Source of the DNA: an uncultured Bacilli bacterium
GTDB lineage: Bacteria > Bacillota_I > Bacilli_A > RF39 > UBA660
Assembly (NCBI GenBank): GCA_947630515.1
Contig: CANRHY010000018.1
Span: 1-11,941, forward strand
Direction: 5' to 3'
DNA length: 11,941 bases
The notes beneath the pieces are model-generated. The model did not search any database and had not been told where the DNA came from. It saw only the letters and a program-made list of their open reading frames with translations. Shown here one piece after another: positions 4,389-11,116 of the stretch. The translations under genes were made by a program, and so were the position numbers. Every line of letters begins with the position of its first letter. Position 1 is the stretch's first letter.

Positions 4389-6416
4389 TTAGTCTGTACC
4401 AGTTTCTTCTCCACCTGGTTCTTCTTCACCACTTCCAGAACTTGAGCCTCCTGGTGTTGTTCCTGGCTCTTCACTTGACTCACCGCCAGTTTCTGTGCTT
4501 GGTGGGTTAGATCCTGTAGATGGATTACTTGGGTCATCTTCAGAACTACCCTCGTTTGGTTTTGTTTCAGGCTTTGTTGGAGTTGTAGGTGTTGTTGGTT
4601 TTTCTTCTTCCTCATTTTCATCTGGTTTAGTTGTTGCTTTCTTTCTTATAACATCTATTGTAATACTTCCAACTTTATCAACTAATACCCCTTCATGAAC
4701 ACTTTGTGAAATTATTTGTCCATCAGTATAATTACTATCACTACTATCTACATAATTAACATTAATAGTTATTCCATGAGAACTTCCCCAGTTATTTGCG
4801 TCTGTTAATGAGTATGCAGTAAAGTCAGGAACTAAACTTCTTCTTGCTTCACCGTAATATGTATATCCTATTATTTCTTTTTCGTATGGACTATTCATAC
4901 TAAAGTTAAATGTCTTTATAATAGTAGGCTCAATTAAACCTAGATTTACTTTCATAGCGTTTATTATACTATTTAAACTTTGTTTATAATATTGGAAAGT
5001 ATATGTGTAATCATAACCTTCATATACGTATAAATCATAACCAGTTAAGAAAGTTTTTGTTATATTTATGTTTACATCTTCTTCTTTTGTTAATATATTT
5101 TTAGCTACGTTATAGAAAGATAACATAGTTTCTCTAGACATATTAGTATCAATGTTATTACTTATTGTATCTAATATTTTATAGAAATCATTAACACTTC
5201 TTACTGTTTTTATTTTATTAATCATACCTTCAACTACTAATTGTTGATTTTGTCCTCTTTGGAAGTCTCCTAGTGGAAGTGTTTTTCTGTGTCTTGCTAA
5301 AGCTAGGGCTTGTTCACCACCTAAAGTTTGAACACCTTTATTTAGGCATATCTCCCACTCATCAGCCCATCTATGTGAGTTTGATTCACAGAAATCCATT
5401 GGTACATCTACTGTAATACCGCCTAGTATATCTACTAAACTTACTACTCCTTGGAAGTTTATTTTTACATAATAGTCAATTGATAAACCAGTAAAGTTTT
5501 CTACTGTTTTTACCATACAGCTAGTTCCACCCCAGGCAGCATGTGTTATTTTAGTTTGATTACCACCACACGCCATTGGAACGTAAGTGTCTCTTGGAAT
5601 ACTAAACATAGTTGCATGTAATGTTTCAGGATCTACTGAGATAAGCATTATTGTATCTCCATTATAAGAAGATGATGATATTCCTTCTTCTTCTGAATCT
5701 ACACCTAAAAGTAGTACTGTAAATGGTTTTGTAATTCTATCGCTTGTTAGTGTCTCTTCTTTTTCTACTTTCTTTTTTTGATATGCTTTTTCATATGTAT
5801 ATATTTCATATATTTTAGTGTCTTCTTTAAATGTTTCTATGTTTTTTAACATAGCTTTATAATTTGAACTTATGAATATCGCGTCTACTTCTTTATTTAT
5901 AAATGCTGTCATAAGTGCGATTGTGTCTTCATAGTTAACTATTTCTGTGCTTTTATCTAAAGAATATTTCTTTATTACTTCTTGTGGTAAAATGTAACCT
6001 TCTGTATCTTCAGTGTTTTCTACAATACCTATTTTTATATCTTTTAAGTCTTCTATTTTTTCTTGCTTTTCTAATGAAATTAATACTGTTTTATATTTTA
6101 GTTCTTGTTTGTTCATGTTATCTAGTTTGTTAAGTACTACTAGAATAACTACTGATATAACTACACTTATTATTGTGAGTATTAGCATAATTATACTTGT
6201 TACTATAAAACCTTTTATTTTATAAAATTTAATACATTCGACTAATCTTACTAAAAGTGTTATTAAAGCAATAGCTAAAAAACAAGAAATCATTATTCTA
6301 TAAAATGTTTCAATAGAACTTAGTAAGTATATTGAATATATAGAACACCCAACTGATAGTATAGATAGTATTGTAAGTATTATTCCAATTATTTTATATT
6401 TTTTTAAATTACCCAT
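4389..6416 (-). CDS. LytR-CpsA-Psr (LCP) family wall glycopolymer transferase with extra domains
   Basis: A 675-aa membrane protein. Three hydrophobic helices (about 8-32, 37-57, 68-96) would leave the rest outside. Residues about 108-210 resemble half of a periplasmic-binding fold (DLKDIKIGIVENTE ... KEVDAIFISS). The LCP domain spans about 230-405 with LLLGVDS (D240), NGDTIMLIS (D254), SIPRDTYV (R275/D276), LARHRK (R376/R378) and FQRGQNQQ (R387). LCP enzymes move undecaprenyl-linked glycopolymers onto peptidoglycan. A PASTA-like segment (about 527-591) and an 80-residue Pro/Thr/Ser/Gly/Glu tail without an LPXTG motif follow. GAAGGAGT (6424-6431) sits 7 nt before the ATG. It is the last gene of the operon, 35 bp after the cohesin-like gene. 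The LCP call is firm; the flanking domain names are read by eye. Confidence 0.92.
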   Translation of the reverse strand: MGNLKKYKIIGIILTILSILSVGCSIYSIYLLSSIETFYRIMISCFLAIALITLLVRLVECIKFYKIKGFIVTSIIMLILTIISVVISVVILVVLNKLDNMNKQELKYKTVLISLEKQEKIEDLKDIKIGIVENTEDTEGYILPQEVIKKYSLDKSTEIVNYEDTIALMTAFINKEVDAIFISSNYKAMLKNIETFKEDTKIYEIYTYEKAYQKKKVEKEETLTSDRITKPFTVLLLGVDSEEEGISSSSYNGDTIMLISVDPETLHATMFSIPRDTYVPMACGGNQTKITHAAWGGTSCMVKTVENFTGLSIDYYVKINFQGVVSLVDILGGITVDVPMDFCESNSHRWADEWEICLNKGVQTLGGEQALALARHRKTLPLGDFQRGQNQQLVVEGMINKIKTVRSVNDFYKILDTISNNIDTNMSRETMLSFYNVAKNILTKEEDVNINITKTFLTGYDLYVYEGYDYTYTFQYYKQSLNSIINAMKVNLGLIEPTIIKTFNFSMNSPYEKEIIGYTYYGEARRSLVPDFTAYSLTDANNWGSSHGITINVNYVDSSDSNYTDGQIISQSVHEGVLVDKVGSITIDVIRKKATTKPDENEEEEKPTTPTTPTKPETKPNEGSSEDDPSNPSTGSNPPSTETGGESSEEPGTTPGGSSSGSGEEEPGGEETGTD

Positions 6417-6451: not shown

Positions 6452-7858
6452 TTATTTTTTTTCTTCTTTATTTTTCTTTTTTTCGTCTTTTTTTTCTATT
6501 TTTTCTTGTTCTATATTATTTTGTTCTGTTTTTATTATATCTTTATTTTGGTTATTTAATTCTTGTTTTAAAGCTTTTTTCTTATTTTTTTTGCTTGATA
6601 AAGTTATAAGTACTACAAGAAGTAATAATATTGTTTCTACTCCAAGTACTATTATTATCATTAAAAAGTTATTGTTTTTTTCAACTAATTCATCTATTAT
6701 TTTGCTGTCATATGCTGTAAATGAATTATTTTTTTTGTCATATACAAAGTAACCTTCTTCGTTATTTTCGATGTTTACTCCATATACTACATAAAGGTTA
6801 GTTTTAGCGTATCTGTATGCTGTTATTTCTTCTTTATTTATTTTAATTTTTGTTTTAGTAAATCCATTTAACCCACCTTTTGGTTCTTTTATAAATAGAG
6901 TAATACCTTCTGATTTTGTTTCAGTATATAATGTATATTTATTATTTTTTTCGTCATATATGAATAAACTTATTTTTCCGTTTTTGTCTTTTAATCCTAC
7001 TAATTTGTAGTTTGTAATTTTACTAATAAAACCTGGTACTTCTACTCCATTTATTTTAAGTGTTGTTTTTTCAAATGTAGAAGGCATAGTTAAACTGCTT
7101 TCTCTTTTTACTACAGTGTAGTCAAGTCCATCTATTCTTAATTTTATTGGGTTTTCATCTTCTACTGTTACTTTTACTGTGTAAGTTTTAGTACTACCAT
7201 TTTCTGCAGTGACTACTATTTCAAATTTGTTATCTCCTTCACTTACGTTAAATTCTCCTGTACCTGTTAAAGTAGCATATCTGTCTTCAACAGATGCATC
7301 TAGTGTTATTTTTTCTGTATTTGATGGAACACTTACTGAGTATTCTAAAGTGTCTTTGTTAAATTCAGGAGTTAGTGAGTATCCATTTATAGATAAGCTT
7401 GCTAAATTGTTATTAGTGCTGTAACTTGCTTGTAAGTCTTCTTGTGTTATTCCTGTTACAGTGGCACTTCCTACAGAAAGGCCTAGTAATTCTTCTTCCC
7501 AGTATGCATAAGCTTCAACTCCACTTACTGATATTGTGCTTGTGCCAGAAGCTTTTACGTAAAATGTGAAATAATATGTTTTAGATGTGTCACTTCCATT
7601 TCCATAATCAACATAATATGCGTTTCCACTAGTTAACTCTAATTTACTAGAGTCATAACTAATGCTATAACTTAAAGAGCCAAGGGCTACATCTGAAGAA
7701 AATGTAACTGATACATTAACATAACTTCCTACTACAGCAGTGTATTTGTCAGTGTTAACTGAAACATAGCCAGATATTGCTTTTAATTTAGTGCTTGGAA
7801 GCAGTAATACAAAAGCAAATATTAATAAATAAACTATCCTTTTTAATCCTTTTTCCAT
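6452..7858 (-). CDS. Membrane-anchored surface protein with cohesin-like and cadherin-like domains
   Basis: A 468-aa exported protein. A signal peptide (1-27, ending KLKA) precedes a cohesin-like beta-sandwich (about 30-137) with the usual pattern AVVGSYVNVSVTFSS, a LGSLSYSISYDSSKLEL strand pair and a closing GSATVTGI. Next is a cadherin-like beta-sandwich (PF12733 type, about 150-233; LASLSINGYSLTPEF ... LEYSVSVP ... NGSTKTYTVKV), an unrecognised region (235-395), a transmembrane helix (about 398-421) and a Lys/Glu-rich cytoplasmic tail. This architecture holds the cohesin-like domain at the outer membrane face. Cohesins bind dockerins, and the gene just upstream in the operon ends in a dockerin. 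A near-perfect AGGAGG (7864-7869) precedes the ATG and the intergenic gap is 12 bp. The cohesin assignment is by pattern, and cohesin-like domains also occur outside cellulosomes. Confidence 0.8.
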   Translation of the reverse strand: MEKGLKRIVYLLIFAFVLLLPSTKLKAISGYVSVNTDKYTAVVGSYVNVSVTFSSDVALGSLSYSISYDSSKLELTSGNAYYVDYGNGSDTSKTYYFTFYVKASGTSTISVSGVEAYAYWEEELLGLSVGSATVTGITQEDLQASYSTNNNLASLSINGYSLTPEFNKDTLEYSVSVPSNTEKITLDASVEDRYATLTGTGEFNVSEGDNKFEIVVTAENGSTKTYTVKVTVEDENPIKLRIDGLDYTVVKRESSLTMPSTFEKTTLKINGVEVPGFISKITNYKLVGLKDKNGKISLFIYDEKNNKYTLYTETKSEGITLFIKEPKGGLNGFTKTKIKINKEEITAYRYAKTNLYVVYGVNIENNEEGYFVYDKKNNSFTAYDSKIIDELVEKNNNFLMIIIVLGVETILLLLVVLITLSSKKNKKKALKQELNNQNKDIIKTEQNNIEQEKIEKKDEKKKNKEEKK

Positions 7859-7870
7859 AACTTTCCTCCT

Positions 7871-10123
7871 TTAAAATGAAGTTATATCTCCTAAAATATA
7901 TTTTTGTACTCTTAGTAAATCTAATATAGAAGTTTTTTCATCATGATTAGTATCAATAGATTTTAATCTTTCATTATTTAATGTAGTACTTCCAAGTAAG
8001 TGTTTTTGTACTTGTAATAAATCTAGTATTGTCACCTTTCCATCACCAGATGGGTCTCCAGTTACTGAAATTGTGTAAGTCCTTGTTTCTCCTCCAGAAG
8101 TAGTCATTTTAATTTTTTGTCCAGTTTTTAGTAAATCTGTACTTGAAGTACTGCTTCCATTTGAGTTTGTTACAGTAACTGTTACAGTACTACTTGCTCT
8201 TTTTATGGAATTAACTAAAGTACTTACTACTGTACCAGGATTTATATTATACATAATTCCATTTGATTGTTTAGTTGAAAGACTACCTACTATTTGGTCT
8301 AGTGTTTTACTATCACTTGCTTTTTTTATAGTTATTTGGTATATTCTAGTCGCACCACTCTCGGCTGTAACTATAATTCTAACAACTGTAGAGTCACCAT
8401 TTAATGTTACTTTTCCATCTCCAGTTACCCTACTTAATGAGTCGTCTTTAGATACTTCTATTTTTACTTCTTTAGTATCTTTTCCTACATAGTAAGTATA
8501 TTCTAGTAAGTTTTTATTAAAGTTTTCTATAGATACACCATCTATTTTTATGTTATTTAAAGTGTTTGTTGTACTTGCAATTATTGGTAAGTTAACACTT
8601 TCTGGCATATTGTTATATACTGGTATATCAAATTCTATTCTGCTTTCCATTTTTCCGTTTTCTAAATATGCATAATATACGTTTGAGCCTTCATCACAAG
8701 GGGCTAAGACGTTAGTTTGATATTGGTGGCTAGCTAGACCATAACTAGAAGTTGGTGAAGTGTTAAAGTGTTGAAAATATAAAGTGTATTGTCCTTCTTT
8801 AATGTATCCTGTTGCTATAAAGTCTGCTCCACCCTTTATCGCAGCTTCTCTTGTCTTCCATGGTCTTCCATATGAATTAGAAAATCCACATTCGCTTCCA
8901 CATGCATAAGCTAGTCCATTTGCTGTTGTGTCATAACCACCTGATACTACTGCATTAATATTATAATAGTTATATAGTCCTTTTAATGAGTGTCCATTAT
9001 ATATTGTTTCATATGTTCCACTTATTATAGGATTACTTTCTCTTGCAGTTCCTTCTTGTACTACACGGCTAGCTAGAAGTGAAGGACTTACATCGTTTTC
9101 AAAACCAGCTTCAATAAATACATTAATGTAGTAATCTGTATCTAGGTAAGTGCCTGATAGTATGCTTTTTAAATCACTATAGTATTTTTTATAACTTGCA
9201 CCATTTTTATTTAGTGAACTTTTTCCATCAGTTCCATAATCATAGTTTTGTTTTTCAAACATAAAGATAAATTTTTCTGTTAAAAAGTTTCTTGGGTCTA
9301 AGTAATATGCGATTACAGGAGTTGTTGTAAAATACCACCCAGATTCTCTTGTTTCTCCGTTTGAGTATAATGGTTTTATTTCATCATCATAAAGATATGC
9401 ATAATTTATAAAGTTCTTATTAGGTGTTTCACTACTTAAAGCTTCGTCCCAATTATATCCAGTGTTAACTGCATTAAATACCCAGTTAGGGTGTTTTTGA
9501 TGTAAGTATACTAAGTAAGGCAAATATCCATCAGTAAATCCTTTATTTCTTAGTTCCTGTTCATAAGAAGCGTCACTTGCAGTTATTTCACTTTTTCTTA
9601 CAACATATTTAGAACATACATATCCGTTTTTATTTTTATGGAAAGTTACGTTATACCAGCCTTCTATACAACCACTGTTATATATTTTATCTCCATGAAT
9701 TGCTAATTCTGTTCCTGGGGCTAATGTTGCAACTAAAGAAGAAGAGGTACTTGCTTCACTTCTTGCATAAATACTAAGTCCATTTACTCTTGCTTCATAA
9801 CTTCCTGTGTTATATCCTGGGTCTGTTGAAGTTATATTACCAACTGATACGTATAAGCCACACATATATCCAGTAGTCCCATTATAATTTACTTTATACC
9901 AACCAGGGTTACAATTAGAGTCACCTTTGTTATATAATTCACTACTTACTAAATCAAGTGTAGTGTATGCTCCATCTATTTGTCCTAGAACGCTTCCATA
10001 TGTACCTGGTTCACTTCTTACTATTATAAAGTAGTCTGTTGTATAACCAGCTAAGGCATCTATTTTATTTATACATATAAAAGATACTATTAAAGTTAAC
10101 AATATAAATAATTTATTTTTCAT
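7871..10123 (-). CDS. SH3b-GH73 endo-beta-N-acetylglucosaminidase with C-terminal dockerin
   Basis: A secreted 750-aa peptidoglycan hydrolase. Order: signal peptide (1-25, ending ALA), two bacterial SH3 domains (about 30-94 and 112-176), a glucosaminidase domain of the GH73/LytG type (about 205-476) with likely catalytic Glu in SRVVQEGT (E357) and typical TPVIAYYLDPRNFL, a cadherin-like beta-sandwich (about 518-602), a small beta-rich module (608-687) and a type I-like dockerin (688-750). The dockerin has two calcium loops, DPSGDGKVTILD (690-701) and DTNHDEKTSILD (724-735), each followed by a similar helix (LLxVQKxxLG). It should cut N-acetylglucosamine bonds in the wall. ATG 10123 is chosen because AAGGAGG (10131-10137) lies 7 nt before it; an ATG at 10147 overlaps the promoter start. 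First gene of a three-gene operon with a cohesin-like partner next. Confidence 0.92.
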   Translation of the reverse strand: MKNKLFILLTLIVSFICINKIDALAGYTTDYFIIVRSEPGTYGSVLGQIDGAYTTLDLVSSELYNKGDSNCNPGWYKVNYNGTTGYMCGLYVSVGNITSTDPGYNTGSYEARVNGLSIYARSEASTSSSLVATLAPGTELAIHGDKIYNSGCIEGWYNVTFHKNKNGYVCSKYVVRKSEITASDASYEQELRNKGFTDGYLPYLVYLHQKHPNWVFNAVNTGYNWDEALSSETPNKNFINYAYLYDDEIKPLYSNGETRESGWYFTTTPVIAYYLDPRNFLTEKFIFMFEKQNYDYGTDGKSSLNKNGASYKKYYSDLKSILSGTYLDTDYYINVFIEAGFENDVSPSLLASRVVQEGTARESNPIISGTYETIYNGHSLKGLYNYYNINAVVSGGYDTTANGLAYACGSECGFSNSYGRPWKTREAAIKGGADFIATGYIKEGQYTLYFQHFNTSPTSSYGLASHQYQTNVLAPCDEGSNVYYAYLENGKMESRIEFDIPVYNNMPESVNLPIIASTTNTLNNIKIDGVSIENFNKNLLEYTYYVGKDTKEVKIEVSKDDSLSRVTGDGKVTLNGDSTVVRIIVTAESGATRIYQITIKKASDSKTLDQIVGSLSTKQSNGIMYNINPGTVVSTLVNSIKRASSTVTVTVTNSNGSSTSSTDLLKTGQKIKMTTSGGETRTYTISVTGDPSGDGKVTILDLLQVQKHLLGSTTLNNERLKSIDTNHDEKTSILDLLRVQKYILGDITSF

Positions 10124-10130
10124 ATAGATA

Positions 10131-10137
10131 CCTCCTT
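10131..10137 (-). promoter_or_regulatory. Ribosome binding site fixing the glucosaminidase start
   Basis: AAGGAGG on the minus strand, 7 nt before ATG 10123. The alternative ATG at 10147 lies next to the predicted transcript start and lacks a site, so the shorter protein, which begins directly with a clean signal peptide, is preferred. Confidence 0.85.
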
Positions 10138-10155
10138 TTTTTAACATATATATAA

Positions 10156-10254: not shown

Positions 10255-10283
10255 TTGACTTGTATTATAAAATATGGTACAAT
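10255..10283 (+). promoter_or_regulatory. Sigma-A type promoter of the SleB-like gene
   Basis: TTGACT (10255-10260), a 17-nt spacer and TACAAT (10278-10283) with a TGG extension just before the -10. The transcript should start near 10290, which rules out the upstream in-frame ATG at 10274 because it lies inside the promoter. Confidence 0.75.
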
Positions 10284-10295
10284 TATATTGGTTTG

Positions 10296-10302
10296 AAGGG
10301 GG
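10296..10302 (+). promoter_or_regulatory. Ribosome binding site deciding the start at 10310
   Basis: AAGGGGG lies 7 nt before ATG 10310 but only 1 nt from ATG 10304, so translation most likely begins at 10310, where a signal peptide (MKKNNYKALL) follows directly. Confidence 0.75.
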
Positions 10303-10309
10303 AATGGAA

Positions 10310-11116
10310 ATGAAAAAGAATAATTATAAAGCACTTCTATGTGCGATTGTTGCAAGTTTATCTGTTAGTAATGTATATGCAGCAGATAATATTATACAAA
10401 ATAAAATAAATCAATATCATAGTACAAGTTTAGTAGAAAATATTGAAAATCTTTATAAGTCTTTAGGGTTATACGACTACTACTTAGAAAGTACAGAAAG
10501 AGCTAAAGAAGAAAGAGAAGCTAAATTAAAAAAGCAAAATCCTACTATAGAGGAAATGATAGAGTTTGTTTGTATTAAATTTGATTTAACTAGAGAACAG
10601 TTTGCTCAGATAGTGGCAGCATGTATTTGTGAAGGATTTGCTGGACCAGAAAATCAAGATAGAATTAATGAAAGTTTGAATGTTGCAAGTGCACTTATAA
10701 ATAGAATTAAAAACACTAAATGGAATGGATATGTTAAAGCTTGGATGCATATACAAGGAAGAGATGTTACTCTTTGGGACCACTTTACTGCACCTAATCA
10801 ATTTGATGTTTTTAATAATATTCATTTTAAAGAAGCTTTAAATCATACAAGTGGGCCTTTATATGAAACTATAATTAAATTTTTCTATTATGTAGATAAT
10901 ATAGACCCAGATAGAATGAACCCAGAGTTTCAAAATTTAAGACACAATTATTGTTCTTACTGGGCTTCTAGGAGTGGAGCTATAAAGTTAATTCCACCTA
11001 AAGGAAATGATTATTTTGACCCAATAGAAGATTATCAAAGAATAGCTACAGAAGATACATATTATTACCAAAATCTATTAGATATAATGGAAAGTGAAAA
11101 GACACTCAGTCGTTAA
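10310..11116 (+). CDS. Secreted SleB/CwlJ-like putative cell wall hydrolase
   Basis: A 268-aa exported protein with a signal peptide (1-24, ending NVYA). A charged linker follows (about 60-77). Residues about 95-170 resemble the SleB/CwlJ wall hydrolase fold (Hydrolase_2): CICEGFAG with a candidate catalytic Glu (E108), then NVASALINRI (124-133), recalling the conserved VAxVxxNR helix, and TAPNQFDVF (160-168), recalling the family's QF motif. SleB-type enzymes act as lytic transglycosylases on muramic-lactam or normal peptidoglycan. The match is by motif spacing only and the C-terminal half (175-268) is not recognised. The gene has its own promoter, a very short leader and a terminator overlapping its end, so it is transcribed alone, divergent from the glucosaminidase operon. 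A different lysozyme-like or hypothetical secreted protein remains possible. Confidence 0.6.
   Translation: MKKNNYKALLCAIVASLSVSNVYAADNIIQNKINQYHSTSLVENIENLYKSLGLYDYYLESTERAKEEREAKLKKQNPTIEEMIEFVCIKFDLTREQFAQIVAACICEGFAGPENQDRINESLNVASALINRIKNTKWNGYVKAWMHIQGRDVTLWDHFTAPNQFDVFNNIHFKEALNHTSGPLYETIIKFFYYVDNIDPDRMNPEFQNLRHNYCSYWASRSGAIKLIPPKGNDYFDPIEDYQRIATEDTYYYQNLLDIMESEKTLSR

Follow-up and report, generated by a model that had tools for sequence, protein, structure and literature searches.

The window analysed here (the whole 11,941-nucleotide stretch of contig CANRHY010000018.1, assembly GCA_947630515.1, from an uncultured Bacilli bacterium) encodes on the minus strand, in two neighbouring genes, a wall hydrolase ending in a dockerin and a membrane-anchored protein carrying a cohesin, and these would very probably constitute a dedicated one-to-one membrane tether for the hydrolase, not a cellulosome. 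Cohesin-dockerin pairs are best known from plant-fibre-degrading complexes. The original prediction had described a wall hydrolase with a two-loop dockerin encoded 12 bp ahead of an anchored cohesin-like protein, and both the domains and the gene order bear this out, the gap between the two genes being 12 nucleotides (nt). Conserved adjacency, absence together, and a co-variation that persists when the remainder of both proteins is corrected for suggest that the two partners bind each other.

The hydrolase begins with a signal sequence, after which come two SH3 domains, the catalytic region and a Cadherin-like domain, and it ends in the dockerin (Table 1). In the profile check that had been proposed for the latter, PF00404 matched with 45.9 bits against a curated cut-off of 22.9 (E=6.5e-12), which identifies a type I dockerin; both calcium-loop repeats have Ile-Leu at loop positions 10-11, and among 189 unique pairs loop positions 1, 5 and 12 are mostly Asp. 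As regards the catalytic region, a profile of 29 orthologues gave 6u0o_B and 6fxp as the top PDB matches (E about 1e-25), ahead of other glucosaminidases, and it is by this similarity to 6u0o_B, which we take to be SagB from the SagB-SpdC structure, that the hydrolase is called SagB-like; the NCBIfam SagB model matches 19 of the 29 orthologues, and the window protein scores below its curated cut-off. Glu 365 of the window protein aligns with a Glu of 6u0o_B, is presumably the catalytic Glu, and is kept in all 203 ungapped members of a set of 205 sequences that includes near-duplicates, the named and other genome sets overlapping. An action on the bacterial wall is supported by this SagB-like domain with its retained Glu, and by the replacement enzymes described below, which are also wall hydrolases. 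The NCBIfam name “enterotoxin EntFM” was not used for the hydrolase, because the match is far below the cut-off and covers the SH3 region only.

In the partner, or cohesin protein, a signal sequence is followed by an N-terminal (N) domain, one of the Cadherin-like type and another extracytoplasmic region; a transmembrane helix lies around residue 400, ahead of a Lys-rich tail. The predicted fold of the N domain is a cohesin beta-sandwich, its closest solved folds being the cohesins of Clostridium perfringens glycoside hydrolases (2jh2, 2w1n, 2vo8); with PF00963 it scores 23.5 bits, just below the cut-off of 24.1, which is a detection threshold (E=3.4e-5), and it is absent from the hmmscan list, while 7 of the 29 orthologues match this model at E<=1. 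The anchor holds a single cohesin. A cellulosome implies a multi-cohesin scaffoldin and plant-polymer enzymes, and what is found in the loci tested is one cohesin on the anchor and, adjacent to it, a wall-hydrolase cargo; for this reason the reading as a cellulosome or mucinolysome was set aside.

The survey of relatives that had likewise been called for was based on 149 loci, of which 29 were chosen for both matches lying together and the remaining 120, the best-scoring matches of a profile built from these 29 known pairs, were chosen by the cohesin protein alone, to avoid selection for pairing. A dockerin gene lies directly upstream, on the same strand, in 118 of these 120 (147/149 overall, including 29/29), with a gap of 8-17 nt in 125 of the 147. 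The same holds for 78 of 80 loci from named records, which overlap with the 149-locus set, the other two starting at a contig end; these records are of uncultured Bacilli, Mollicutes, Tenericutes and similar, including Candidatus Onthousia faecigallinarum, and their isolate names indicate the guts of rabbits, ruminants, mice and poultry, and in some cases sediments. The pair is common across the window's family, whose members are small Bacilli, most of them from guts: by a hand count from tables, 29 of 37 genomes of this family have a dockerin match beside the cohesin protein, that of G021 being a shorter protein. The cohesin protein itself is found in 328 of 386 genomes of this family at E<=1e-3, a count that also takes in matches confined to the Cadherin-like part; in 47 of 60 genomes of an order sample at E<=1e-30, all 60 falling within the window's family; and in 10 of 100 genomes of a class sample at E<=1e-20 (7/11 in the window's family and 3/89 outside it, all three in one other family). 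In the second family, all four loci have an adjacent dockerin gene.

Presence together is accompanied by absence together. Among 21 genomes of the family that lack a complete cohesin protein (20 of the 58 without a match, plus G014, whose match is weak, E=3.4e-4), a profile search found the catalytic domain of the hydrolase in none, and any dockerin above threshold in two (G161, G163), while the four positive controls had both.

The two partners also change together, and in the parts that would be in contact. Pairwise distances were taken over five blocks, namely the N domain, the Cadherin-like domain and the C-terminal part of the partner, and the dockerin and the catalytic domain of the hydrolase, in 170 unique pairs (the 189 minus 19 without a usable block, mostly the catalytic one). 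The N domain correlates with the dockerin with r 0.69 and a partial correlation of 0.55; none of 499 permutations reached the observed value, the largest being 0.11, and the partials of the other blocks with the dockerin were 0.04 (Cadherin-like), 0.07 (C-terminal part) and 0.08 (catalytic). The N-dockerin partial is 0.55 without the named-record pairs (135 pairs), 0.57 after thinning (82), and 0.39 within the cohesin class alone (127). Clusters of the two domains agree at 5, 6 and 8 groups (adjusted Rand 0.58, 0.58 and 0.54), and do not at 3 or 4 (about 0 and 0.08).

In unsupervised clusters of the N domain, 117 of the 127 cohesin-class receptors are accompanied by a DLLxxQK-like dockerin, 3 by DLLxxRQ and 7 by others; class B, a short, 97-residue Ig-like receptor, always by a DYVxxKN-like one (21/21); and class C, a short receptor with two cysteines, by DLLxxRQ in 17 of 18. 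A singleton receptor has a DY dockerin, and three further receptors have other motifs. The motif rules were drawn up after viewing the sequences and were later loosened from a stricter version, under which 110 cohesin-class, 20 class B and 17 class C pairs are matched. Class C aligns with the cohesin class with an hhalign probability of 96; the chagasin model PF09394 matches 8 of the 29 anchors (best E 2.2e-7) and BatD 7 of the 29, and the short receptors may be related to I42, the chagasin inhibitor family. The balance of these comparisons leans towards a dockerin receptor that would have been remodelled or replaced several times in the family, its two compact classes binding dockerins with correspondingly altered motifs.

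The same matching recurs in other pairs. In G003 and G006 the cohesin/DLL hydrolase pair is joined by a second, which consists of an M6 peptidase bearing a DYV dockerin and an adjacent receptor of class B (E about 1e-18), and at the loci L093, L094 and L082 a class B membrane receptor is directly upstream of such a peptidase; in G005 and G007 a long protein of similar type bears a DYV dockerin, on a short contig where no receptor is seen. In genomes with several dockerins, all 11 readable further dockerins differ in motif from the hydrolase of the same genome, the dockerin profile having read none at five other loci, and at the L334 locus of the second family a DYV dockerin again goes with a class B-like receptor (E=2.5e-10). 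The cargo, for its part, is exchanged. A SagB-like region is found in 137 of the 147 dockerin partners; of the remaining ten, contig ends truncate three, and the seven complete ones all have a Pfam glucosaminidase domain, the cargo of L281 being closest in the PDB to 7pj3 (E=1.7e-19), which we take to be pneumococcal LytB. In the second family L333 has a GH25 muramidase as its cargo, L334 a glucosaminidase, L335 another glucosaminidase that scores just below cut-off, and L336 a SagB-like enzyme. Since the replaced catalytic domains are still wall hydrolases, the conserved unit would be wall hydrolase, dockerin and membrane receptor, with an exchangeable catalytic part.

Further proteins with dockerin-like or cohesin-like parts were observed in these genomes. 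In that of the window, contig 24 encodes an M60-type peptidase with an internal dockerin-like stretch (L096, 3113-8959) and, 3 nt further on, a small membrane protein that is cohesin-like by eye and has no Pfam cohesin match, possibly a third pair of the same design; on contig 46 (L095, 160-7278) the N-terminus of an M26-like peptidase resembles a cohesin, and the protein also shows a weak half dockerin. Contig 23 of G006 (L097) carries a scaffold-like protein with one cohesin and three Cadherin-like domains, and a 1892-amino-acid protein with a C-terminal dockerin of motif KINDAMKISNHLNK. The G028 genome (L342, L350) has ten dockerins, and the two read besides that of the hydrolase have IGDLLYARQYITG, unlike the hydrolase dockerin, in what looks like a separate docking system. 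Hydrolases without a dockerin still adjoin the cohesin protein at L267, where there are eight SH3 stretches, and at L297.

If the two proteins do bind, the hydrolase would be secreted as a soluble SagB-like glucosaminidase without a membrane anchor of its own, its C-terminal dockerin would be captured, probably in a calcium-dependent manner, by the N-terminal cohesin of the neighbouring protein, and the transmembrane helix of the latter would keep the complex on the outside of the membrane, where the held enzyme could cut peptidoglycan strands near the sites of attachment of LCP glycopolymers. That the two bind, that calcium is required, how the proteins are oriented in the membrane, and that the enzyme works on the nascent wall of its own cell are all steps that we infer, and the last would be the weakest, a guess by analogy with SagB that draws on homology and on the LCP genes nearby.

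Several observations weigh against so exclusive a tether. A tether explains neither the correlation of the N domain with the catalytic domain (partial 0.24-0.38) nor that between catalytic domain and dockerin in cohesin-class subsets (0.20-0.22); N-domain and Cadherin-like clusters agree as well at 8 groups (adjusted Rand 0.50); and the independent pairs on supported branches of a tree of the partner's remaining parts, which agree in 5/5 and 4/4 cases, form a test too small for significance (p 0.0625 and 0.125). In G226 and G097, of one genus and the two exceptions to the pairing, a hydrolase without a dockerin is still beside the cohesin protein, with four dockerins elsewhere in the former and none in the latter. 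Beside more distant anchor-like proteins the cargo may be other than a wall hydrolase, as with the M6 peptidase (L082, L093, L094), and at L099 (G009) two anchor-like proteins have as their neighbour a repeat-containing NAGPA-domain protein whose dockerin match is weak, another possible cargo; some genomes have other dockerins and cohesin-like domains, and therefore cross-binding is possible. The linkage to an LCP gene, which the original prediction had placed in the same operon, stands in the window, where this gene begins 35 nt downstream of that of the cohesin protein, and is not universal: an LCP gene is within about 5 kb in 44 of the 80 named-record loci, a count taken without a random-locus control and with many loci incomplete.

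These observations could be accommodated by other explanations. Adjacent genes could travel together, and the N-catalytic correlation just mentioned would fit a joint transfer of the two between lineages, the co-variation then arising without any binding; such a transfer, however, should tie the dockerin to the whole partner and not to the N domain alone, as the partial correlations do, and the class match recurs in the M6 peptidase pair and at L334 of the other family, all of which makes this explanation very improbable. A hub resembling a cellulosome, in which the dockerin would mainly bind other cohesins, or the anchor take many cargoes, in a surface complex for host or dietary polymers, would be favoured by the several dockerins of some genomes (1-10 among those with a match), by the dockerin-like stretch of the M60 peptidase and the cohesin-like N-terminus of the M26-like peptidase in the window's genome, by the three Cadherin-like domains of a cohesin protein in one related genome, and by the M6 and NAGPA cargo beside related anchors. 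Yet the anchor has one cohesin only, the further dockerins at 11 loci differ from the hydrolase motif of the same genome, the window's genome (74% complete) has two dockerins above cut-off, and all seven complete cargoes without a SagB-like region in the 149-locus set have a glucosaminidase domain, so that a hub of this type seems improbable. Somewhat less improbable, though still unlikely, is that the tethered enzyme attacks the walls of other bacteria as a surface-bound lytic device, for which there is the precedent, in the excerpt of PMC6403190, of dockerin-containing wall hydrolases in a cellulosome setting, with the suggestion of a “lyticome”; against it are the predicted anchor, a membrane helix, the LCP genes near the 44 loci counted above, and the best structural relative, SagB, which according to the excerpt of PMC12272431 acts on the nascent wall at the membrane. 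A dedicated tether for a wall hydrolase is thus the reading that we prefer.

The coordinates of the features are collected in Table 1. For the hydrolase, the program listed a start at 10147; the AGGAGGT motif lies 6 nt ahead of the ATG at 10123, and for this reason the latter start, which was that of the original prediction, is preferred. Positions 10274-11116 of the window encode a divergent, secreted-looking protein of 280 amino acids with no significant Pfam match, weak relatives of which (26-31%) are upstream of the pair at L064 and L067.

Table 1. Features of the locus in the window (aa, amino acids)
Feature	Coordinates	Strand	Evidence or remark
Dockerin-bearing SagB-like glucosaminidase gene	7871..10147 as listed	-	probable start 10123 = 750 aa
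AGGAGGT, probable ribosome-binding site for the 10123 start	10130..10136	-	read from sequence
Two bacterial SH3 domains (approximate limits)	9593..10045	-	PF08239 E=3e-16, two stretches
SagB-like GH73 catalytic region (approximate)	8603..9550	-	profile against PDB, 6u0o_B E=7e-26
Glu 365, probable active site	9053-9055	-	Glu in 203/205 sequences, two gapped
Hydrolase Cadherin-like domain	8324..8557	-	PF12733 residues 531-608, E=1.7e-5
Type I dockerin, two calcium-loop repeats	7892..8059	-	PF00404, residues 697-752
Membrane-anchored cohesin protein gene, 468 aa	6452..7858	-	
Cohesin domain, residues 27-139	7442..7780	-	
Cadherin-like domain of the cohesin protein	7166..7405	-	PF12733 residues 152-231, E=2.8e-13
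Transmembrane helix, then Lys-rich cytoplasmic tail	6605..6673	-	hydropathy; helix in predicted model
LCP glycopolymer transferase with PASTA domain	4389..6416	-	PF03816 E=5e-43, PF03793 E=1.8e-5

If the tether is real, cohesin-dockerin docking would extend beyond the breakdown of fibre to the maintenance of the envelope, in bacteria whose genomes measure about 1 Mb. SagB has a membrane anchor of its own, and the pair would show how a hydrolase of this type can be held at the membrane without one. The 189 unique natural pairs, in several matched classes, are in any case material for learning cohesin-dockerin specificity; and if the short receptors bind, dockerins would have receptors beyond the canonical cohesin, and there would be a natural set of mutually exclusive plug-and-socket pairs, of which at least two genomes use two for different enzymes.

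Of the open-licence PubMed Central papers listed in the literature searches, none, judged by title and the start of the abstract, is about a cohesin-dockerin pair dedicated to a wall hydrolase; the comparison is with systems that share parts of it. The type I pairs of the cellulosomes of Clostridium and Ruminococcus have the same cohesin fold and a two-loop dockerin with conserved calcium-loop residues; here, in contrast, there are one cohesin and one cargo, adjacent genes, a transmembrane anchor, a wall hydrolase instead of fibre-degrading enzymes, and two additional classes of short receptor. The Clostridium perfringens cohesins, the nearest solved folds, are part of a glycoside hydrolase, as the titles of 2w1n and 2vo8 state, whereas that of the window is on a membrane anchor. 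The dockerin-bearing wall hydrolases of the “lyticome”, as far as the excerpt of PMC6403190 goes, are associated with cellulosomal scaffoldins; here the pair would be dedicated, and the genomes measure about 1 Mb. The Limousia mucinolysome, in the excerpt of PMC12997984, also belongs to a gut bacterium and has a cell-anchored cohesin, and differs in its many mucin enzymes, multi-cohesin scaffoldins and sortase anchor. Finally, in Staphylococcus aureus, SagB releases nascent peptidoglycan together with its membrane partner SpdC (LyrA), according to the excerpt of PMC12272431, and the shared feature is a homologous glucosaminidase with a membrane partner, which in that case is a protein of the CAAX-protease family and in ours would be a tether of the cohesin type.

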